DNA of 64,000 nt from an uncultured Alphaproteobacteria bacterium (GTDB taxonomy: Bacteria; Pseudomonadota; Alphaproteobacteria; JAPOUT01; G958296285). Shown piece after piece: positions 5,959 through 43,816 of this stretch. Location of the stretch: NCBI GenBank assembly GCA_958296285.1, contig OY282459.1, positions 124,001 through 188,000 of the forward strand, in the 5' to 3' direction. Under the pieces are notes generated by a model. That model made no database searches, was not told the origin of the DNA, and saw only the letters and a list, made by a program, of their open reading frames with translations. The position numbers and the translations under genes are program-made. Each line of letters begins with the position of its first letter. Position 1 is the stretch's first letter.

Positions 5959-6773
5959 GAATCTTATTTTTGGGCGATGTTGTCGGACGCTCGGCGCGCG
6001 AGGCTCTTATTAAAGAGACGCCGCGATTGCGCGAGTCTTTGCGGCTGGATTGCGTGATTGTGAATGGCGAGAACGCGGCGGGCGGGTTTGGCATCACGGC
6101 GGCGATTGCCGAGGATTTTTTTGCTGCTGGCGTGGATGTCATCACGACTGGCAATCATGTTTGGGATCAGGCGGAGGCGGCGGAGTTGTTGGCGCGCGAG
6201 CCCAGACTTTTGCGGCCGGACAATTATCCGCCGCGGACGCCGGGGCGAGGCGGCGGGGTTTTCAAGACGCGGTCGGGCGAGGCGATTTGCGTCATTAATT
6301 TGATGGGTCGGCTTTTCATGCCCATCGCGTCTGACAATCCTTTTGATGCGGCGGAGCGTTGGATGGCGCGTCATATTTTGGGTCGTGATGTGGCGGCTTT
6401 TGTTGTGGACATGCATGCCGAGTCGGTATCGGAGAAGATGGCGATGGGGCATTTTTGTGATGGGCGCGTCAGTTTGGTTGTGGGGTCTCATACGCATGCT
6501 CCGACTTCGGATGAGCGGATTTTATTGGGCGGCACGGCTTACATGACGGATGCGGGGATGTGCGGCAATTATGATTCGGTTGTGGGTTTTGAGAAGGAGA
6601 AGAGCGTTCGGCAGTGGGCGACGGCGGTGCCGGGGGGTCGCAAGGGTTCTGCGTTAGGGGAGGCGAGTTTGTGCGGGGTTTATGTTGAGACGGATGGCAG
6701 GGGTTTGGCGGTGGATGTTGGGGCTTTGCGTTTGGGGGGGTTGCTGCTGCCGACTTTGCCGAGCTCCCGTTGA
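5955..6773 (+). CDS. YmdB-type metallophosphoesterase (TIGR00282 family)
   Basis: Cytoplasmic metal-dependent phosphodiesterase of the family that includes Bacillus YmdB. Metal-ligand motifs are in order: MRILFLGDVVGR, VNGENAAGGFGI, TTGNHVWDQ, DMHAESVSEKMAMG and VGSHTHAPTSDE. 272 residues matches the family. The start overlaps the fthC stop. The last codons (PSSR-stop) lie inside the left terminal inverted repeat of the downstream modular repeat, so that element supplies the stop. The physiological substrate in Proteobacteria is not settled. Confidence 0.9.
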   Translation: MRILFLGDVVGRSAREALIKETPRLRESLRLDCVIVNGENAAGGFGITAAIAEDFFAAGVDVITTGNHVWDQAEAAELLAREPRLLRPDNYPPRTPGRGGGVFKTRSGEAICVINLMGRLFMPIASDNPFDAAERWMARHILGRDVAAFVVDMHAESVSEKMAMGHFCDGRVSLVVGSHTHAPTSDERILLGGTAYMTDAGMCGNYDSVVGFEKEKSVRQWATAVPGGRKGSALGEASLCGVYVETDGRGLAVDVGALRLGGLLLPTLPSSR

Positions 6774-34932: not shown

Positions 34933-35230
34933 ATGAGACGGATTTTCACGATCTTATGGGTGATGGCGGGGGCGCTGTCGCTGCGGCTCGGGATAGATTT
35001 CACGCGAGGGCGGCGCGAGACGGTCGGCGAGGCGGGGACGCTGGATTTGGGATCGCATCGCGTTGGGGGGGGAGGATGCGATTGCGCCTTATGAGGATAC
35101 GGCGGCGTTGTTGGCGCGGGAGTTTCCGGGGAGGGTTCGGGCGGTGAGGATTGAGGGTGCGGGACATGCTTTGTTGCCTGAGGCTCCTTCTCGGATTCGG
35201 TCGGTTGTTTTGGATTTTCTGAAGAAATAA
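34933..35230 (+). pseudogene. Remnant of an alpha/beta-hydrolase gene
   Basis: The 3' part (about 35035-35230) reads LGGEDAIAPYEDTAALLARE and then GAGHALLPEAPSRIR ... VLDFLKK-stop, which looks like the last strand, catalytic His and final helix of an alpha/beta-hydrolase. It has no start in its own frame. An ATG at 34933 opens a different frame (MRRIFTILWVMAGALSL) that ends at TGA after an eight-G run at 35065-35072. The 200 or so residues expected upstream are absent, so this is a decayed C-terminal fragment. The rest of the gap after pyrE shows nothing recognisable. Confidence 0.4.
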
Positions 35231-35235
35231 CGCGC

Positions 35236-35552
35236 TCCATGTGAAGGGGGGTGTGGGGGGCTAGCCCCCCGCAAAAAACAAGGTTGCCGTGAGGCAACCT
35301 ATAGGTCGGCGGGCGTGGCGCAACGAAGCAAGCGAGGCGAGCGTAGCGAGACGAGCTTGCGAGAAGCCCGCCGACCCCCCTCCAAGAGCTCTTGCGGGCA
35401 GGGGGCGCGTGGGTGGGTCGCATTTGCTCGCTGCACTGCGTTTGCTCGCAAATGCTTTTTTCCCACCCACCCACGCGTTTTCGGGGGGATTCCCCCCGAC
35501 CCCCCCTTTCTCAAGGGGGGCAAGCCCCCCTTGACCCCCCTTTACGGGAGCG
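35236..35552. repeat. Modular intergenic repeat, copy 7
   Basis: GTGAAGGGGGGTGTGGGGGG and CTAGCCCCCC start; hairpin AGGTTGCCGTGAGGCAACCT; AGTCGGCGGGCG-type stem with a longer loop; CAAGAGCTCTTG hairpin; GCGTGGGTGGG ... CCCACCCACGC; GGGGGGATTCCCCCC; CAAGGGGGGCAAGCCCCCCT; end CCCCCCTTTACGGGAGC, related to the GCTCCCGTTGA end. Its last bases abut the stop of the minus-strand gene at 35555. It marks the left border of the accessory region. Confidence 0.9.
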
Positions 35553-35554
35553 CC

Positions 35555-36076
35555 CTAGCGCCAAAAAACATTGTAAAGAATCACGAAAGCGAAAAACGCC
35601 ACAACAAAAAGAAAAAAACAAATCATCATCGCGCTAAACCATCCGCCTCTATAATTTCCGCCCAACGCCCCGATCGTCTTGCGATGCCAAAACCTCCAAA
35701 CCATCTCCCAAAAGCCGACATAAACCGCCGCATGAACATAACCAAAAAAAACAGCGCCCGATCTGTAAGCATCGCTTACAACCTCTTCCATCAATGGATC
35801 GCATGGCTCCGGCGATCGGATGGATCCGAAAGGATATTGCTCCTGACATTCCTCCAGCGCCTTCACATCCAAACTGTGCCGCGTCTCAGCGCCTAAAACG
35901 ACAAAGACGTAGCCTGCCCCAATGGCAAGGACGAGTCTTGCGAATCGGAGCGAGGCGCTGTGCTTCGGAGCGGCGGCGAAGACGAGCGCCGGCGGGACGA
36001 CAATCAGAAGCCAAAGCCAAAAATTGACAGGAACGTCAACCAAGAGAATGACAATCGTTGCGGCGATTTCCAGCAT
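35555..36076 (-). CDS. Predicted multi-pass membrane protein, unknown function
   Basis: 173 residues with about four transmembrane helices: ~5-35 (IVILLVDVPVNFWLWLLIVV and following), ~45-62, ~108-128 and ~148-170. A polar loop (~65-105) contains two cysteines, in ALEECQEQYP and SPEPCDPLM, that could pair outside the cytoplasm. I do not recognise the family. GGGGAGAGC lies upstream of the ATG. It is divergent from the toxin-like gene at 36216 with ~140 bp between, so it could be part of that locus, but nothing proves it. Confidence 0.6.
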   Translation of the reverse strand: MLEIAATIVILLVDVPVNFWLWLLIVVPPALVFAAAPKHSASLRFARLVLAIGAGYVFVVLGAETRHSLDVKALEECQEQYPFGSIRSPEPCDPLMEEVVSDAYRSGAVFFGYVHAAVYVGFWEMVWRFWHRKTIGALGGNYRGGWFSAMMICFFLFVVAFFAFVILYNVFWR

Positions 36077-36215: not shown

Positions 36216-37010
36216 ATGCATGTGGATTCCCCTCTCTATCGCAAAGCTTTTGAAGCCTATCTTCGCAAGGGGACTCCGATCGCGTCTTTTGTGAAGCGGG
36301 CGCGGACGACCACGCATTATATTTGGCGCACCCAAAGAGACAACAAGGTTCGCCCGAGCCATCGCGCCAATGAAGGAAAGATTTTCTCTTGGGACAGCCC
36401 TCCTCCGACAGGTCATCCTGGGGAAGCACCCAATTGTCGGTGTTATGCAGAGCCACATATTCAGGGCGGAGAACAGATGCGCATTCGGCACACAGGGTAT
36501 CAGAACACCGGCTCCAGAAGATGGTCAGACTTCGATATGGCCATGCACTATCTCTTTGGAAATGGCAAAACCGTCATTCTGCGAGAAGTGGGTCTTCTCG
36601 AGGATTTCGTCAACCGCTATAAACAAATAGGCGGACAAAACCTTTTGGGAAAAATTGCCGATAAGGCGCGCGCAAACATTGGACAAAGTTTTAGCGGCGA
36701 ACATCCGGAAAGATATAACATGAGACCAGTCGTTTGGAGTCTAGGAGGCGTAACCGTTATCGGAGAATTCTCCGGAACTTGCAGCCTAAAAAAGGGATTA
36801 ATATTCACCCAGGGGAGAATAAAATTTATTGTGGAGGAGACATACAAAGATGTTCTCGACCCTTCCAACAAATATCCTGATGATGAGCACCCTCCATATG
36901 ATCTTCCCATTGCGCAAATTTACGACGTTACAGATGAGTGGCGTGGTTCATTCAGTGGATATGTCCTTCAAGATCGCTCTAGGAGCAGATACAGATATGA
37001 TAAAAAATAG
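36216..37010 (+). CDS. MuF-like / colicin-M-like toxin candidate
   Basis: 264 residues in two parts. Residues ~35-80 match the C-terminal motif of phage Mu gpF-type minor head proteins: QRDNKVRPSHRANEGKIFSW, then GHPGEAPNCRCYAEP with C74 and C76. Residues ~100-260 resemble the catalytic domain of colicin M, which cuts lipid II: HYLFGNG (111-117) equals the HYLxGNG motif, then VIGEFSGTCSLKKG and the acidic segment YKDVLDP (D212, D215) where colicin M has DKYD; His225 follows. The colicin M Tyr is Leu here. No signal peptide or secretion domain is visible. GGAG lies 10 bp upstream of the ATG. Six paralogous membrane proteins follow on the same strand. Confidence 0.7.
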   Translation: MHVDSPLYRKAFEAYLRKGTPIASFVKRARTTTHYIWRTQRDNKVRPSHRANEGKIFSWDSPPPTGHPGEAPNCRCYAEPHIQGGEQMRIRHTGYQNTGSRRWSDFDMAMHYLFGNGKTVILREVGLLEDFVNRYKQIGGQNLLGKIADKARANIGQSFSGEHPERYNMRPVVWSLGGVTVIGEFSGTCSLKKGLIFTQGRIKFIVEETYKDVLDPSNKYPDDEHPPYDLPIAQIYDVTDEWRGSFSGYVLQDRSRSRYRYDKK

Positions 37011-37025
37011 ACATCAACATAACCC

Positions 37026-37616
37026 ATGAAATTCTCTCCGCGGATTGTCTACAAGACAGCAAAATACGGGCTCTTTATCGCGCTATGTCTCCCGCCCGCA
37101 TGGTGTATCGTAGACAGCTATAATAGAAGGCAAATCTGCGCGGAACTGCCCAATGGCGCGATCCTTGGCTATACAGCATTCCTAGATCCAACACAGTTTC
37201 TATGGGAACCCTATCCGACTCTCAAGGCGCGCGATGGCACGACATTAATCCAAAGCGAACGCCACTTGGAAAGTCTCTCCTTTTCTAGAACGACAGTCTA
37301 TGGGGTTGTCGGGCCAAGATCGAGTCTCATGGACAGCGAAGGATTCTATAGCAGTTTCGCCTATAGGCCGGATGTCGGCTTGGTCTTGGCGGAGAGAAAC
37401 GGCGCGCTCTACAGAAAGATCGTCAAAGAGGACACAACGTCAAAGCGGTCAAGAATCCCCCGCGGACTGCTAGAGTATCATGCGCGTCTCTTCAACGCCG
37501 CTTTGCCGAAAATGGGAGAACACACGCTGATAGATATCTTTATCGCATACAATTATCTGTCGGGAGATCCTGCCTATCGGCGCGAGGATTGCCCGTTGGA
37601 CATTTTCCCTCAATGA
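37026..37616 (+). CDS. Putative periplasmic immunity protein, paralogue 1
   Basis: 196 residues: a short basic N-terminus, one transmembrane helix (~12-30), then a ~160-residue domain that would face the periplasm. Conserved features of the array: RRQIC (Cys38), LPNGAILGYTAFLDP, PTLKARDGTTLI, TTVYGVVG, YRPDVGLV, ALYRKI, and DPAYRREDCPLDIFP (Cys189). The two cysteines frame the domain and may form a disulfide. It starts 16 bp after the toxin-like gene and lacks a clear ribosome site. From RRQIC to its end it differs from paralogue 4 by only two residues. Confidence 0.75.
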   Translation: MKFSPRIVYKTAKYGLFIALCLPPAWCIVDSYNRRQICAELPNGAILGYTAFLDPTQFLWEPYPTLKARDGTTLIQSERHLESLSFSRTTVYGVVGPRSSLMDSEGFYSSFAYRPDVGLVLAERNGALYRKIVKEDTTSKRSRIPRGLLEYHARLFNAALPKMGEHTLIDIFIAYNYLSGDPAYRREDCPLDIFPQ

Positions 37617-37634
37617 GGATGGAAGCCGCGCCTC

Positions 37635-38240
37635 ATGATGAAATCTTTTCTGAGACGATCCTACAGGCTCATCAAATACGCGTTTCTTGTCGCGTCATGC
37701 TCTTTCTTTGTCTTGCTGGTGATCAGCCTCTATAGGACGCGTCAAATCTGCGTGGAACTGCCGAATGGCGCGATCATCGGCTATATGGCGTTTCTTGATC
37801 CGAAACAGTCCTTATGGGACGCCTATCCGACTCTCAAAGCGCCAGACGGCGCAACATTGATCCACAACGACAATTACGCGGACAGTTTCTCCTTTTCCGA
37901 AACGACAGTCTATGGCACTGTCGGGCCAAGATTGGATCTCCATGGCCGATCGGGGCCCTTTCATGCCTTCGCTTATAGGCCGGATGTCGGTCTTGTCATA
38001 GAAGAGGAAAACCCCGCGCTCTATAGAAAAATCGTCAAAGAGGACAGAAGAAAAGAGGGGAGAAGAAACCCGGGAAGGATTGCCCCTGGGCTGAAAGAGT
38101 ATTACGCGCGTCTCACCAAAATGCCTGCGTTGAAAAACACGGAGAACGGGGTGACCGATATCTGGACAACTTACGAATATATGTCAAAAGTCCCGGCTTA
38201 TCGGCGCGAGAACTGCCCGTTGGATATTTTCCCTCAATGA
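37635..38240 (+). CDS. Putative periplasmic immunity protein, paralogue 2
   Basis: 201 residues, same plan: anchor helix ~14-32 (FLVASCSFFVLLVISLY), RTRQIC (Cys39), LPNGAIIGYMAFLDP, SETTVYGTVGPR, AYRPDVGLV, PALYRKIVKED, and PAYRRENCPLDIFPQ (Cys194). It has a Lys/Arg-rich insert after KIVKED. The start follows a leader, ATGGAAGCCGCGCCTC, which is repeated before paralogues 4 and 5 and contains the GGAAG ribosome site. Its anchor segment is almost identical to that of paralogue 4. Confidence 0.75.
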   Translation: MMKSFLRRSYRLIKYAFLVASCSFFVLLVISLYRTRQICVELPNGAIIGYMAFLDPKQSLWDAYPTLKAPDGATLIHNDNYADSFSFSETTVYGTVGPRLDLHGRSGPFHAFAYRPDVGLVIEEENPALYRKIVKEDRRKEGRRNPGRIAPGLKEYYARLTKMPALKNTENGVTDIWTTYEYMSKVPAYRRENCPLDIFPQ

Positions 38241-38812
38241 GAATGGGGAGGATGCGCCTTGTCCTGCGGCTTTTCTACAGAGCGATCAAGTATGTTTTGC
38301 TCGTTCCGTTCCTTCTGCTTTCGCTCTTCCTCTTTTCGGCGGCTTATCTTAATCATTCTCGCCGTTGCGCGGCGCTCCCCAATGGCTTGATTCTCGGCTA
38401 TGGGTCATTTTTGGATGCTCGGCGCTATGCGTTGAACTTCCATCCGACCCTGCTCTTGCCGGATGGGACGCCGCTCTTGGCGCGTGAGGATTATGTTCAT
38501 CATTTTTATTTTTCGCGGAGCACGGTCTATGGCGTGGCGGGGCGGCGGCGCGATCTTGACGGTTCTGCCGCTCCCGCGCCCTATCGCTTCCTCTATAGAG
38601 AGGATGTTGGTCTCGCGCTTGAGACGGAGAATCCTGAGCGCTATAAGAGGCTCAGAGACGAAGCGGGACGATTGCGTGAAGCGCTTCCCCAAATTCGTTA
38701 TGCGGCAGATTCTTTCGCGCATAATGATATAAAGGCAGCCTATGACTATATGTCGCAAGACCCTGCCTACAGGCGCGAGAACTGCCCGTTGAGTCTTTTT
38801 CCTGATTCTTGA
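38237..38812 (+). CDS. Putative periplasmic immunity protein, paralogue 3
   Basis: 191 residues, a more divergent member. Anchor helix ~17-38, SRRC (Cys44), LPNGLILGYGSFLD, FYFSRSTVYGVAG, YREDVGLALE, and DPAYRRENCPLSLFP (Cys183). Closest in this set to paralogue 6 (shared SFLD/SFFD, HHFYFS and YREDVG). ATG 38237 overlaps the stop of paralogue 2; an in-frame ATG at 38252 directly follows GGGGAGG and is an alternative. Confidence 0.75.
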   Translation: MRMGRMRLVLRLFYRAIKYVLLVPFLLLSLFLFSAAYLNHSRRCAALPNGLILGYGSFLDARRYALNFHPTLLLPDGTPLLAREDYVHHFYFSRSTVYGVAGRRRDLDGSAAPAPYRFLYREDVGLALETENPERYKRLRDEAGRLREALPQIRYAADSFAHNDIKAAYDYMSQDPAYRRENCPLSLFPDS

Positions 38813-38827
38813 TGGAAGCCGCGCCTC

Positions 38828-39421
38828 ATGATGAAATCTTTCCCGCGCCAATCCTACAGGCTCATCAAATACGGGTTTCTTGTCGCGTCATGCTCTTTCT
38901 TTGTCTTGCTGGTGATCAGCCTCTATAGGACGCGTCAAATCTGCGCGGAACTGCCTAATGGCGCGATCCTTGGCTATACAGCATTCCTAGACCCAACACA
39001 GTTCCTATGGGAACCCTATCCGACTCTCAAGGCGCGCGATGGCACGACATTAATCCAAAGCGAACGCCACTTGGAAAGTCTCTCCTTTTCTAAAACGACA
39101 GTCTATGGGGTTGTCGGGCCAAGATCGAGTCTCACGGACAGCGAAGGATTCTATAGCAGTTTCGCCTATAGGCCGGATGTCGGCTTGGTCTTGGCGGAGA
39201 GAAACGGCGCGCTCTACAGAAAGATCGTCAAAGAGGACACAACGTCAAAGCGGTCAAGAATCCCCCGCGGACTGCTAGAGTATCATGCGCGTCTCTTCAA
39301 CGCCGCTTTGCCGAAAATGGGAGAACACACGCTGATAGATATCTTTATCGCATACAATTATCTGTCGGGAGATCCTGCCTACAGACGCGAGGATTGCCCG
39401 TTGGACATTTTCCCTCAATGA
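38828..39421 (+). CDS. Putative periplasmic immunity protein, paralogue 4 (mosaic of 2 and 1)
   Basis: 197 residues. The first ~39 residues match paralogue 2 with three changes, while everything after the QIC motif matches paralogue 1 with two changes, and the DNA follows the same pattern. The switch lies near CAAATCTGCGCGGAACTGCC (about 38936-38956). This is the signature of recombination or gene conversion inside the array. Cys39 and Cys190 are kept, as are the other conserved blocks. The leader ATGGAAGCCGCGCCTC precedes the start. Confidence 0.78.
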   Translation: MMKSFPRQSYRLIKYGFLVASCSFFVLLVISLYRTRQICAELPNGAILGYTAFLDPTQFLWEPYPTLKARDGTTLIQSERHLESLSFSKTTVYGVVGPRSSLTDSEGFYSSFAYRPDVGLVLAERNGALYRKIVKEDTTSKRSRIPRGLLEYHARLFNAALPKMGEHTLIDIFIAYNYLSGDPAYRREDCPLDIFPQ

Positions 39422-39439
39422 AAATGGAAGCCGCGCCCC

Positions 39440-40003
39440 ATGATGAAAAATCGCCTTCGCTTCTCAATCAAGATCGGGACATGCGCCCTCCTCGCGCTGC
39501 CGTGCCTTTCTCTGCTCGTGATGCTGATGACGTCCTATGAGGCGCGTCAAATCTGCGCGGCGCTGCCGAATGGGGCGATTGTCGGCTATCACGCCTTTTT
39601 TGATCCGCGCGAGCCGCGATGGACGCCCTATCCGATATTGAAACGCCGCGATGGCGCGGCGCTTCTCTTGGAGAAGCGCGTCTTTCCGTTCTTCTTCACC
39701 GAGACGACCGCCTATGGCATGGTCTCTGCGGGGGGCGTCTATCAAAATCGCGCCGGCTTCGCCTATAGGCCCGATGTCGGCATGGTCTCTGAGAGCAAAG
39801 ACCCGGCGCTCTATAAAAAACTCCAAAGCGAGGCCGGGGAGGCGGACGCCCCGATTTTCCGCGCCCACAATGACGAAGATCGCGACCGCGATGGTCCGAG
39901 TCGCATGGGGCTTCGTCTCTTTTATCAGACGATGATTCAAGACCCCGTCTATCGGCGCGAGGATTGTCCGCTCGCCCTTTTCCCGAAACTCTTCCCCGAA
40001 TGA
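39440..40003 (+). CDS. Putative periplasmic immunity protein, paralogue 5
   Basis: 187 residues: anchor helix ~14-32, ARQIC (Cys39), LPNGAIVGYHAFFDP, FTETTAYGMVS, YRPDVGMV, DPALYKKLQ, and DPVYRREDCPLALFP (Cys176). The C-terminal half before the last motif is shorter and acidic (HNDEDRDRDG). Start preceded by ATGGAAGCCGCGCCCC, the same leader as before paralogues 2 and 4. Its stop is close to the start of paralogue 6. Confidence 0.74.
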   Translation: MMKNRLRFSIKIGTCALLALPCLSLLVMLMTSYEARQICAALPNGAIVGYHAFFDPREPRWTPYPILKRRDGAALLLEKRVFPFFFTETTAYGMVSAGGVYQNRAGFAYRPDVGMVSESKDPALYKKLQSEAGEADAPIFRAHNDEDRDRDGPSRMGLRLFYQTMIQDPVYRREDCPLALFPKLFPE

Positions 40004-40011
40004 GGCGCGCC

Positions 40012-40656
40012 ATGACGAAAGACCTGTCCGAGATGATCGCCAAAACGATAAAATACGCTCTTTTGGGTCTTTTGGCTCTTCCCTTTCTGTGGTCTCTTGG
40101 GGCGCTTTCGGGGTCTTATTATCGGGCGCGGATTTGCGCGGAGTTTCCGAACGGCTTGCTTTTGGGCTACGGGTCTTTTTTTGACAAAGGCGGCTTTGTC
40201 TTGAACCGCGTCTTGACCTTGAAGCGCGCGGACGGAAGAGCGCTCATTCCGCCTGAGGATTTTCTCCATCATTTTTATTTTTCCGAGCGCGCGGTTTATG
40301 GCGCGGCGGGACGGCGGCGGCGCTTATCGGACGAGACCGCCCCCGCGCCCGCGCCTTATCGCTTCGCCTATAGAGAGGATGTCGGTTTTGCGCTTGAGAA
40401 GAGGGACGCGGCGCTTTATCGGAAGATCAAAGAGGAGGCGGGTTCGTTGATAAGGATCAAGCCGCCTCCGCCTTCGCGTTTTTTGAGAGAGATGCGCTCG
40501 CTGATGGATTCTGCGGCTCGCGGCTCGCGCGCTGAGGTTTCTGCCGATTTTTTCATGCATCGGGACATTCGGGCGGTTTGGTTGGCGATGTTGGATCGGT
40601 CTTATGGCGGGCGTTATCGGCGTTCGGGCTGTGTTTTGGCGATTTTCTCTGAGTGA
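40012..40656 (+). CDS. Putative periplasmic immunity protein, paralogue 6
   Basis: 214 residues from ATG 40012, which has GAGG six bases upstream; ATG 40000 overlaps the previous stop and is less likely. Anchor helix ~15-33, RARIC (Cys42), FPNGLLLGYGSFFD, HHFYFSERAVYG, YREDVGFALEKRDAALYRKI, and a diverged end, RRSGCVLAIFSE (Cys207). It has an extra ~30-residue stretch before the last motif. It is the last member of the array and the most divergent at the C-terminus. Confidence 0.73.
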   Translation: MTKDLSEMIAKTIKYALLGLLALPFLWSLGALSGSYYRARICAEFPNGLLLGYGSFFDKGGFVLNRVLTLKRADGRALIPPEDFLHHFYFSERAVYGAAGRRRRLSDETAPAPAPYRFAYREDVGFALEKRDAALYRKIKEEAGSLIRIKPPPPSRFLREMRSLMDSAARGSRAEVSADFFMHRDIRAVWLAMLDRSYGGRYRRSGCVLAIFSE

Positions 40657-41103: not shown

Positions 41104-42021
41104 TTATGCCGTGTTGCCGCGCTTCCGCGCTTCTATCCGCCATACTTCTTTTTTCCAGTGCGCCATGCTTCTGAGCTGTTTTAACTTCCCCTCATCGTAA
41201 TCGCTGTCTCCACGCCTGATAATGTTTTCTTCCCCCCAGGGCGGGGTTTGCCCCTTCGGCAGACGCGGTTCAAGATCCTTATAATATCGGATCCCTTCTA
41301 TCCCGTAAGGACCGCTTTCAGTGTTAGACAAATCAACCAAAGACAAATTGGCTCCATGCGATAAGGGACAATACTCCTCATGCCTATCTGGAGAACCTTT
41401 ACCCCAGCTAAAGAAGATCGGGATTTTGCGTTTCTGTCCCCGTATAAACCTATTTGGAGAACCTTCCCCCCATCTCTCGAATTCTAGCTTGGCACGAGAC
41501 AATCGGGATCCGGACAAGTCAGCAGCCGTTAAGTCAGCATGGATCAGTTTAGCGTCTATCAAATTAGCCTCAAACAGATCGGCCCCACACAAAAAAGTAT
41601 CGGACAGATCAGCGCCGCCTAAATCAGCGCGGGAAAGATTGGCTTTTATCAAACCAGCCTTATTCAATTTAGCATCGGACAGATTAGTATCGGACAGATT
41701 CGCTCCATTCAATCCGGCTTCGCGCAAATCAGCCTTGTGCAAATCCGCTTGGCGCAAATCCGCTTGGCGCAAATCCGCCCTACGCAGATCGGCATAAGAC
41801 AAATCGGCATGAGACAAATCAACCCCGCGCAGATATGCGCCGCGGAAAGTAGATTTCATAAAAGAGAAATGGGATAAATTTGTTCCCTCAGGCAGATAGA
41901 CGTCCCGAAAACCCTTGCGGCTTAAATCAATACTCTTTCGTTCCTTAGGCGTTTTGACGATGGCGGCGAGAGCTTCCAGCGCAGCTTTACTGACCTCTTT
42001 TTGTCCTATGCTTCTACGCAT
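41104..42021 (-). CDS. Pentapeptide-repeat protein (C-terminal half of a split membrane protein)
   Basis: 305 residues. Residues ~50-180 are tandem A(D/N)LXX repeats (for example LSHADLSYADLRRADLRQAD), which form a right-handed beta helix. No transmembrane helix. The N-terminal segment (SKAALEALAAIVKTPKERKS, DLSRKGFRDVYLPEGTNLSHF) aligns with the middle of the intact paralogue at 42532-43713. The gene lies 11 bp after the membrane protein gene at 42033-42524, in another frame. Together the two equal the paralogue, so this is a split version of it. Function unknown. Confidence 0.8.
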   Translation of the reverse strand: MRRSIGQKEVSKAALEALAAIVKTPKERKSIDLSRKGFRDVYLPEGTNLSHFSFMKSTFRGAYLRGVDLSHADLSYADLRRADLRQADLRQADLHKADLREAGLNGANLSDTNLSDAKLNKAGLIKANLSRADLGGADLSDTFLCGADLFEANLIDAKLIHADLTAADLSGSRLSRAKLEFERWGEGSPNRFIRGQKRKIPIFFSWGKGSPDRHEEYCPLSHGANLSLVDLSNTESGPYGIEGIRYYKDLEPRLPKGQTPPWGEENIIRRGDSDYDEGKLKQLRSMAHWKKEVWRIEARKRGNTA

Positions 42022-42032
42022 TTTGAGAACTC

Positions 42033-42524
42033 CTATCCTTCGCCTTCTTCTTCGTCTGACGCCTCCTCCATAATATCATTATTGCTAGCCAGCATGGCAA
42101 TGATTTCTTTTATCGCTTGCGCCAGAATGTCGTTATGCTCTAGATTCTCGCTCAGTTTCCGCAGAATTGCGAGGACGCCCACCTTCACTTCGGGATCGTC
42201 ATTCTTGTATCGCTCCAGGGCGCGAGAGAAAATGTCTATCGCGTTTCTGTCTTGAGCGATGTCATTTTGGCGCTTCATCTCCGCCGTGCGCCGCGCTGCC
42301 AAATAAAGCCCGCCCGTTGCGATGAAAAATGCCGAAATAGTTGTAGCAAGCGCCACCTTAATGCCGAAAACGCCGTGGGAAACATACAAAACGGCAGGAG
42401 GGAGAATGAGAATCCAAAAGGCTATGACAAGATTGTCCCATTTAGCCCAAAAAGATCGAATCCATTGCCAAGCCCTTTGCCGCCAAAGCGGAGCCTTTTT
42501 TTCTGTATTTTCTGTCATCTCCAC
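42033..42524 (-). CDS. Two-helix membrane protein (N-terminal half of the split pentapeptide protein)
   Basis: 163 residues with two transmembrane helices (~32-52 and ~57-76), then YLAARRTAEMKRQNDIAQDR and NAIDIFSRALERY, which repeat YLTARRTAEMNRQNNLVEQR and NAADTFSRAVDQL in the next gene upstream. The region after it (GVLAILRKLSENLEHNDILA) is helical and HEAT-like. It ends acidic (EEASDEEEGEG). The start is probably GTG 42524 with AAGGG upstream. It lacks the pentapeptide domain, which is encoded separately just downstream. Confidence 0.72.
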   Translation of the reverse strand: MEMTENTEKKAPLWRQRAWQWIRSFWAKWDNLVIAFWILILPPAVLYVSHGVFGIKVALATTISAFFIATGGLYLAARRTAEMKRQNDIAQDRNAIDIFSRALERYKNDDPEVKVGVLAILRKLSENLEHNDILAQAIKEIIAMLASNNDIMEEASDEEEGEG

Positions 42525-42531
42525 TCTGCCC

Positions 42532-43713
42532 TTATCCAGCGCTCGTTGGTAAGTGTAACTCGAGGTCTTCTAATTCCCCTTCAGAATAGTTATTATCTCC
42601 GGGTTTGATAATGCTGTCATCTCCTTCCTGCAAATCCAAATTCTTTGGCAGATTCGGAGGGAAGCGCTCATAGAACCGTATACCTTTTAGCTGATTCTCT
42701 GTAAGATTTATGGTATCTATTAAATTAGCTCCACTCAAATTGGCATCTTTCAACTTGGCTCTGTCCAGATCAGCGCTCTTTAAATCAGCATGGAACAAAT
42801 CAGCCCCGCGCAAATCGGCTTCTCTCAACCAAGTTTCTTTCAAATCAGCATGCATCGAACTAATCCAACGCAAATTGGCCCCCCTCAACTTAGCCCCTCT
42901 CAAGTTGGTGCAATAAAAATCAGCCCCACGCAAATCGACTCGGTACAACACGGCCTCTCTCAAGTCGCTACAGAAAAAATTAGCCCCGCGCAAATCGGTT
43001 TCTCTAAAAGAAGCCTTTCGCAAATCAGCTTCAGTAAAATCGAAAAAGGATAGATCACTTCCCTCATCAAAATTGAGATTTCGCAAATCTGTGCGACTCA
43101 AATTAACCGCTGTGCGCTCTGCATAACCTTTGGCGATAGAACCAAGAGCTTTGATCGCATCTTCCACATCCAATTTGTCCTCTCTCTTCTCCACTCTTCC
43201 CACCCGTTCTCCCGTTTTTTCATCCCTCTCCGTCATTAGAACACGGTCGCTGACAAAGGCGATGAGGGTTTTGATAACCATCTGTCTCAGATCGTTCTCT
43301 TTTTCGGCGCTCTCACCCAACTGACTCAAAGTGGCGATGCCGCCTCGCCGCACCGCCGATCTATCATGTCCCAGCTGATCCACGGCGCGAGAAAAAGTGT
43401 CTGCCGCGTTTCTTTGCTCTACGAGATTATTTTGGCGGTTCATCTCCGCCGTGCGCCTCGCCGTCAGATAGAGAGCCGCTGTCGCAAAGAAGAAAGCGGA
43501 AAGGGTAGCCGCGATAGATAAGCTCTCTTCAAGTGTCCGTGCGGTTTCCTCTTTAAGTTCAACGCAGAAGATGAAATAATAAAAAGCCGCTGCAGTCGGA
43601 AAAACGATCCAAAGAACGAGCCAAACCTTCCACCATGCGAAACCCCAAGAGATAAGACTCTTCTTAACGCCTTGAGGGATATTCTTGATCCATTGCCAAA
43701 GCGAATCGGTCAT
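42532..43713 (-). CDS. Membrane-anchored pentapeptide-repeat protein
   Basis: 393 residues: two transmembrane helices (~30-55 and ~70-90), a conserved YLTARRTAEMNRQNN segment, a helical region (IATLSQLGESAEKENDLRQM), then pentapeptide repeats from ~190 to ~340 (LRKASFRETDLRGANFFCSD and similar). The start is ATG 43713 with GGGAGAC upstream; the longer frame runs into tRNA-His and is not real. This domain order is seen in pentapeptide proteins thought to act at membranes, but no function is established. It is the full-length paralogue of the split pair downstream. Confidence 0.8.
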   Translation of the reverse strand: MTDSLWQWIKNIPQGVKKSLISWGFAWWKVWLVLWIVFPTAAAFYYFIFCVELKEETARTLEESLSIAATLSAFFFATAALYLTARRTAEMNRQNNLVEQRNAADTFSRAVDQLGHDRSAVRRGGIATLSQLGESAEKENDLRQMVIKTLIAFVSDRVLMTERDEKTGERVGRVEKREDKLDVEDAIKALGSIAKGYAERTAVNLSRTDLRNLNFDEGSDLSFFDFTEADLRKASFRETDLRGANFFCSDLREAVLYRVDLRGADFYCTNLRGAKLRGANLRWISSMHADLKETWLREADLRGADLFHADLKSADLDRAKLKDANLSGANLIDTINLTENQLKGIRFYERFPPNLPKNLDLQEGDDSIIKPGDNNYSEGELEDLELHLPTSAG

Positions 43714-43739
43714 CTCTGTCTCCCTGTGTGCTTCCCTGC

Positions 43740-43816
43740 TGGTACAGCCGGGTGGATTCGAACCACCGACCTCTTGATCCACAATCAAGCGCTCTAACCA
43801 ACTGAGCTACGGCTGC
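43740..43816 (-). tRNA. tRNA-His (anticodon GTG), G1:U72 / A73 form
   Basis: Acceptor GCAGCCG (5' end at 43816) pairs with CGGCTGT, giving a G1:U72 wobble pair. The discriminator is A73 and CCA is encoded. D arm TAGCTCAGTTGGTTAGAGC, anticodon stem-loop CTTGA-TTGTGGA-TCAAG, T arm GGTGGTTCGAATCCACC. Most bacteria have G-1:C73 in tRNA-His; the form here matches a clade of Alphaproteobacteria with an altered histidyl-tRNA synthetase. Confidence 0.95.

Follow-up and report, generated by a model that had tools for sequence, protein, structure and literature searches.

A MuF-type toxin gene and the six paralogues behind it

The window (the whole 64,000-nucleotide stretch of DNA that we analyzed) carries a gene for a MuF-type polymorphic toxin and, directly after it, six paralogous genes that we refer to as p1 to p6. 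These features, with the evidence for each in parentheses, are as follows.

36216-37010, plus strand: MuF-type polymorphic toxin gene (PF04233, TIGR01641; toxin-domain homology with other loci)
37026-37616, plus strand: putative immunity paralogue 1 (p1), nearest the toxin; parent of the p4 periplasmic domain (informative sites, family relatives)
37635-38240, plus strand: putative immunity paralogue 2 (p2), the parent from which p4 has its anchor and 5' spacer (informative sites)
38237-38812, plus strand: putative immunity paralogue 3 (p3); closest to p6 (identities, trees)
38828-39421, plus strand: putative immunity paralogue 4 (p4), the hybrid (informative sites, trees, anchor and domain identities)
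39440-40003, plus strand: putative immunity paralogue 5 (p5) (protein identities)
40012-40656, plus strand: putative immunity paralogue 6 (p6) (protein identities)

The paralogues (37026-40656) are six intact ORFs on one strand with almost no space between them. Counting the toxin gene, the intergenic gaps are 8 to 18 bp, plus one 4-bp overlap, and the toxin gene and the array are most likely carried on one transcript. The six proteins are 187 to 214 residues long and share 34 to 87% identity, with most pairs at 34 to 55%. They cluster as one group with modest tree support (70 for the full protein, 46 for the domain). We considered duplication of a p1-p2-p3 triplet into p4-p5-p6 and rejected it; p3 and p6 are sisters, but p2 is nearer to p1 than to p5. 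Searches across 142 relatives and 385 genomes belonging to the class found no member of the p1-p6 family, a search of genome contigs with p4 alone returned no relative of the family, and no Pfam or NCBIfam model covers it.

Residues about 32 to 77 of the toxin protein correspond to the C-terminal part of the Phage_Mu_F domain (PF04233, E = 1.1e-12; TIGR01641, E = 6e-13). Only this part of the MuF domain is present, and relatives begin at the same place. The toxin domain itself (residues about 85 to 264) is homologous to toxin domains at other loci and matches phrog_31798 (E = 2.2e-9), while the protein has no Pfam or NCBIfam match other than MuF. A profile search of the toxin domain against the PDB produced a single weak hit (8w2s, 24 bits, 71 residues), and the AlphaFold model of the toxin, with a pLDDT of 32, was discarded. 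The GC content of the toxin gene is 47.8%, compared to 58.6% for the window, and the whole genome has one MuF hit. No surrounding prophage or phage neighbours were recognized around the gene in the window; the flanks of the module are chromosomal, with polA and pyrE upstream. On composition and gene context, the toxin-immunity module looks like a horizontally acquired unit that has become detached from its phage.

Several other features lie in the same sequence. A copy of a 310- to 340-bp dispersed repeat with inverted ends occupies 35221-35560; the 1.73-Mb genome was scored as having about 40 long copies (77 to 87% identity), and several more or partial copies lie in the window, e.g., at 6773, 11838, 18338, 59324, and 59985. 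After pyrE, 34956-35231 appears to be a decayed gene, and by eye the frame ending at 35231 resembles the C terminus of an alpha/beta hydrolase. Downstream of the array, 41104-42021 and 42532-43788 (minus strand) hold a gene for a pentapeptide-repeat protein (PF00805) beside another ORF that has repeats of a similar kind and, at its N terminus, a membrane region. The stretch at 42033-42524 resembles the N-terminal part of this second pentapeptide-type ORF (124-nt direct repeat at 42214 and 43379).

Pairing with the toxin and predicted architecture

The first sign that the two proteins belong together came from pTB4, a plasmid of Roseobacter denitrificans that encodes distant relatives of the two next to each other, straddling the start of the record. 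The immunity alignment alone, used as the query, brought up five genomic loci, and a separate search with only the toxin domain brought up seven viral contigs. At all 12 of these loci, the toxin domain is followed directly by one immunity gene, and five further viral contigs carry the same adjacent pair. An immunity gene is thus immediately downstream of the toxin domain in 18/18 relative loci, which amount to fewer than 18 independent cases since some of the viral contigs barely differ from each other. Every one of these relatives has a single immunity gene, compared to six in the window. On the viral contigs, the pair is flanked by head genes (portal, protease, capsid, and head-joining) on one side and tail genes on the other, as recognized by eye. 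From this pairing, we infer that p1 to p6 are immunity genes of the adjoining toxin, as had been presumed in the preliminary description of this DNA.

Other occurrences of the toxin domain depart from this arrangement. It is also found on carriers without MuF, namely, in Xenorhabdus and at L041, L042, and L043. The stand-alone copies without MuF at L013 (3980-4543) and L041, in Xenorhabdus adjoining an ISAs1 transposase, have no recognizable immunity gene. At L030 and L031, the matches to p4 span just 46 residues, and a profile search found no immunity gene at either. In a Tepidamorphus MAG (L017, 5604-6519), the toxin gene is broken (a 114-residue fragment) and the immunity gene is intact. 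Divergent copies of the toxin domain at L042 (1438-2243) and L043 (1390-2300) lie in Rhs-like cassette arrays and are each followed by a putative lipoprotein. These lipoproteins are candidates for an unrelated family of immunity proteins directed at that toxin domain. Phages and plasmids searched with an Rhs-like toxin-domain copy yielded no hit.

By hydropathy, all 19 aligned immunity proteins have one dominant hydrophobic segment with an invariant cysteine directly after it, and a second invariant cysteine lies near the C terminus. This pattern suggests a membrane anchor followed by a periplasmic domain. The structure model of p4 has a mean pLDDT of 73.6, and compared with the PDB it gave no match with an E value below 0.2. 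We propose that the toxin acts in the cell envelope, where an anchored periplasmic immunity protein would meet it. The small proteins that follow the toxin-domain copies outside MuF proteins at L042 and L043 have a lipobox-like start, which is consistent with an envelope target.

Mosaic structure and origin of paralogue 4

The preliminary description held that p4 is a recombinant of p2 and p1. We compared the three genes at 187 informative sites, where p1 differs from p2 and p4 equals one of the two. Up to 38935, p4 equals p2 at 50/53 sites; from 38946 on, it equals p1 at 132/134. The maximum chi-square (MaxChi) for the p4 mosaic was 163, a value reached by 0/50,000 permutations, and in a maximum descent test 0/200,000 permutations reached the observed value. 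The resulting segments are listed here.

38811-38935, plus strand: p2-like tract of p4, comprising spacer, start codons, cytoplasmic tail, and transmembrane anchor, both of these predicted (50/53 sites)
38936-38945, plus strand: recombination interval CAAATCTGCG, 10 bp, identical in p1, p2, and p4 (codons 36 to 40, RQICA; informative sites absent between 38935 and 38946)
38946-39440, plus strand: p1-like tract of p4, comprising the entire predicted periplasmic domain, the stop codon, and part of the next spacer (132/134 sites)

The switch of partner had been placed near 38936-38956. This location holds, but 38956 is a base private to p4, and so the upper limit moves down and the interval narrows to 38936-38945. 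The original span of 37635-39421 also left the second parent, p1 (37026-37616), outside. Neither tract stops at the ends of the gene. The p2-like tract begins within the p3/p4 spacer (about 38811), whose sequence GATGGAAGCCGCGCCTCATGATGAAATCTTT is the same as that of p2, and the p1-like tract extends beyond the p4 stop codon into the p4/p5 spacer (about 39440).

At the protein level, residues 1 to 39 of p4 differ from p2 by three changes (L6P, R8Q, and A16G) and residues 40 to 197 differ from p1 by two (R to K and M to T), both as first described. Nucleotide identity between p2 and p4 is 0.943 in the head and 0.708 in the tail, while that between p1 and p4 is 0.555 in the head and 0.983 in the tail; in the coding tail, p4 and p1 differ at 8 of 469 aligned bases. 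Recombination testing, which had been proposed as a check, gave the same picture, in that MaxChi and the comparison of trees both favor a mosaic over one phylogeny along the gene. Two unlinked trees had an AICc of 6939.1 versus 7129.8 for one tree, and this difference of approximately 190 units comes partly from the parameters of the unlinked model. In AU tests, the tail rejected the head topology (5e-5), while the head alone (138 columns) did not significantly reject the tail topology (0.32). Near the 3' end, p4 has TACAGA at 39374-39385 where p1 and p2 have TATCGG. The matching site in p3 (38762-38773) has TACAGG, perhaps another small conversion patch.

Synonymous divergence (dS) follows the same division. 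In the tail, dS is 0.055 for p1/p4 and 0.67 for p2/p4; in the head, it is 0.083 for p2/p4 and 1.6 for p1/p4. Values of about 0.06 to 0.08 in the hybrid tracts compare to 0.6 to 1.7 between other array pairs. Judged by these values, recombination within the array is young relative to the array itself, in agreement with the recent exchange originally suggested. They also bear on a reading without any recombination, under which the likeness of the p1/p4 domains and of the p2/p4 anchors would reflect unequal constraint on an old duplication. Anchor and domain do differ in evolutionary rate across the whole immunity family. However, the partner switch is sharp, falling inside 10 bp, and constraint fails as an explanation of the mosaic because synonymous sites change partner too. 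We consider this reading the most improbable of all. Hardly more credible is an assembly artefact arising from near-identical repeats, which had been raised as a way the original claim could fail. The p1/p4 match of about 500 bp does exceed short reads, but p4 has nine bases absent from both p1 and p2, distributed over both tracts, where a false p1-p2 join would give none. In addition, two p4 bases within the p1-like tract match the opposite parent, and the genome is a single 1.73-Mb contig. This argument is drawn from the assembled sequence.

The p1/p4 comparison by itself carries no direction of transfer. Hence, p1 could be the recombinant, an original p4 having given p1 its domain while p1 kept its own anchor. 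With p2 as the outgroup, the eight tail differences between p1 and p4 divide into two p1-derived, four p4-derived, and two without polarity. A wider comparison indicates p4. We compared 34 immunity pairs, within the window and beyond it. In 33 of them, among which are all pairs from other genomes, identity is lower in the anchor than in the domain. The only reversed pair is p2/p4 (anchor 0.92, domain 0.61). The most lopsided pair is p1/p4 (0.34 and 0.99), and p1/p2 (0.29 and 0.61) resembles pairs from other genomes, e.g., L022/L027 (0.21 and 0.58). Since p2/p4 is reversed, p1/p4 extreme, and p1/p2 ordinary, p4 is the hybrid; on these identities, p1 and p2 are unmixed relatives and p4 is the mixture. 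A recombinant p1 would leave p2/p4 an ordinary pair, yet p2/p4 alone has the anchor more conserved than the domain, and a second event would be needed. We therefore regard a recombinant p1 as unlikely.

How the hybrid was made is a separate question. Gene conversion or unequal crossing-over had been suggested. Recombination stands, but a plain crossing-over of p1 with p2 predicts the order p1-hybrid-p2, and the order seen is p1-p2-p3-hybrid, with p4 located between p3 and p5 and not between p1 and p2. Because the hybrid is placed after p3, its formation calls for non-reciprocal conversion of a fourth gene already present, for reinsertion, or for a later rearrangement. We favor gene conversion, or crossing-over with rearrangement, as the probable mechanism. 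In our model, homologous recombination inside the array, at the short identical stretch just past the anchor, produced p4. It fused a complete p1 periplasmic domain to the spacer, start of translation, and anchor taken from a p2 copy. The outcome would be homogenization of the domain belonging to the toxin-proximal gene.

The breakpoint (codons 36 to 40) is just C-terminal to the transmembrane anchor, and the predicted periplasmic domain of p4 equals that of p1 at 156/158 residues. Because a joint past the anchor leaves the p1 domain nearly unchanged, the specificity of p4 is expected to be that of p1. p4 would then supply the p1 specificity a second time on a different anchor, possibly for dosage or as a back-up, and would not be a new specificity. 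It had been proposed that new immunity specificities arise here by shuffling. Polyimmunity arrays are thought to broaden protection (PMC3482391), and the array as a whole has diverged (34 to 55% identity for most pairs), so different genes may recognize different toxins. However, the exchange in p4 was limited to the anchor and 5' region, its putative recognition domain is that of p1 with two changes, and the proposal was not borne out for this gene; we think it improbable that p4 gained a new specificity in this way. New specificity may apply instead to the older divergence of p2, p3, p5, and p6. A more speculative idea, which we hold only tentatively, is that the array evolves by swapping two separable cassettes, with the joint always in one place. 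One cassette would be a rapidly changing anchor plus its translation start, and the other a conserved recognition domain; recombination would then tune the expression level or membrane placement of the cognate immunity domain and leave its specificity as it was. Taken together, we favor an acquired MuF-type toxin with a six-copy immunity array in which p4 is a hybrid that duplicates the p1 specificity, with a probability of roughly 0.8.

Comparison with known toxin-immunity systems

The toxin-immunity pair described here has no Pfam or NCBIfam model, probably acts in the envelope, and occurs on prophages, a plasmid, and chromosomes. In one genome, its immunity gene has been multiplied to six, with young recombination between the copies visible. 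Together with its parents p1 and p2, p4 offers a ready-made domain swap with which to ask whether the periplasmic domain determines immunity specificity, what part the anchor plays, and whether immunity arrays serve dosage or breadth. These genes also call for caution, in that shuffling within an immunity array need not create new specificities.

The MuF polymorphic toxins of temperate phages (Jamet et al. 2017, PMC5576092) have the toxin domain C-terminal to MuF and a small immunity ORF immediately downstream. Like them, the locus in the window has a MuF-toxin fusion and an adjacent immunity gene, and its relatives lie in prophage structural clusters; unlike them, it has six immunity genes instead of one and no recognized prophage. 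We conclude that the locus is probably a MuF-type toxin-immunity system with the immunity gene multiplied to six, its toxicity and neutralization being predicted from the conserved pairing.

Homogeneous polyimmunity loci (Zhang et al. 2012, PMC3482391) are tandem paralogous immunity genes of one family. The array matches these in its single strand, single family, probable single transcript, and at least four genes. It differs in belonging to a family without a Pfam or NCBIfam model, in lying directly behind a toxin gene, and in its visible young intragenic recombination. Immunity arrays of the Vibrio cholerae T6SS also place several immunity genes downstream of one effector. They were attributed to displacement of horizontally acquired effector-immunity pairs, and duplication was rejected (PMC5361080). 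In contrast, p1 to p6 show a tendency to cluster as one group and trade sequence with one another.

The colicin M immunity protein Cmi, in which a cysteine bond is required for activity (PMC8469651), shares with the p1-p6 proteins one transmembrane anchor and a periplasmic domain, with one cysteine immediately following the anchor and another close to the C terminus (the disulfide being putative here). Cmi has 117 residues, whereas p1 to p6 have 187 to 214. The active-site motif of colicin M, DxYD(x5)HR (PMC8469651), is absent from all 14 toxin domains, on which ground colicin M membership of the toxin was rejected, and the toxin profile search found no colicin M structure. Because the toxin lacks the colicin M motif, we claim no kinship with colicin M and Cmi, and the likeness to Cmi is one of architecture.
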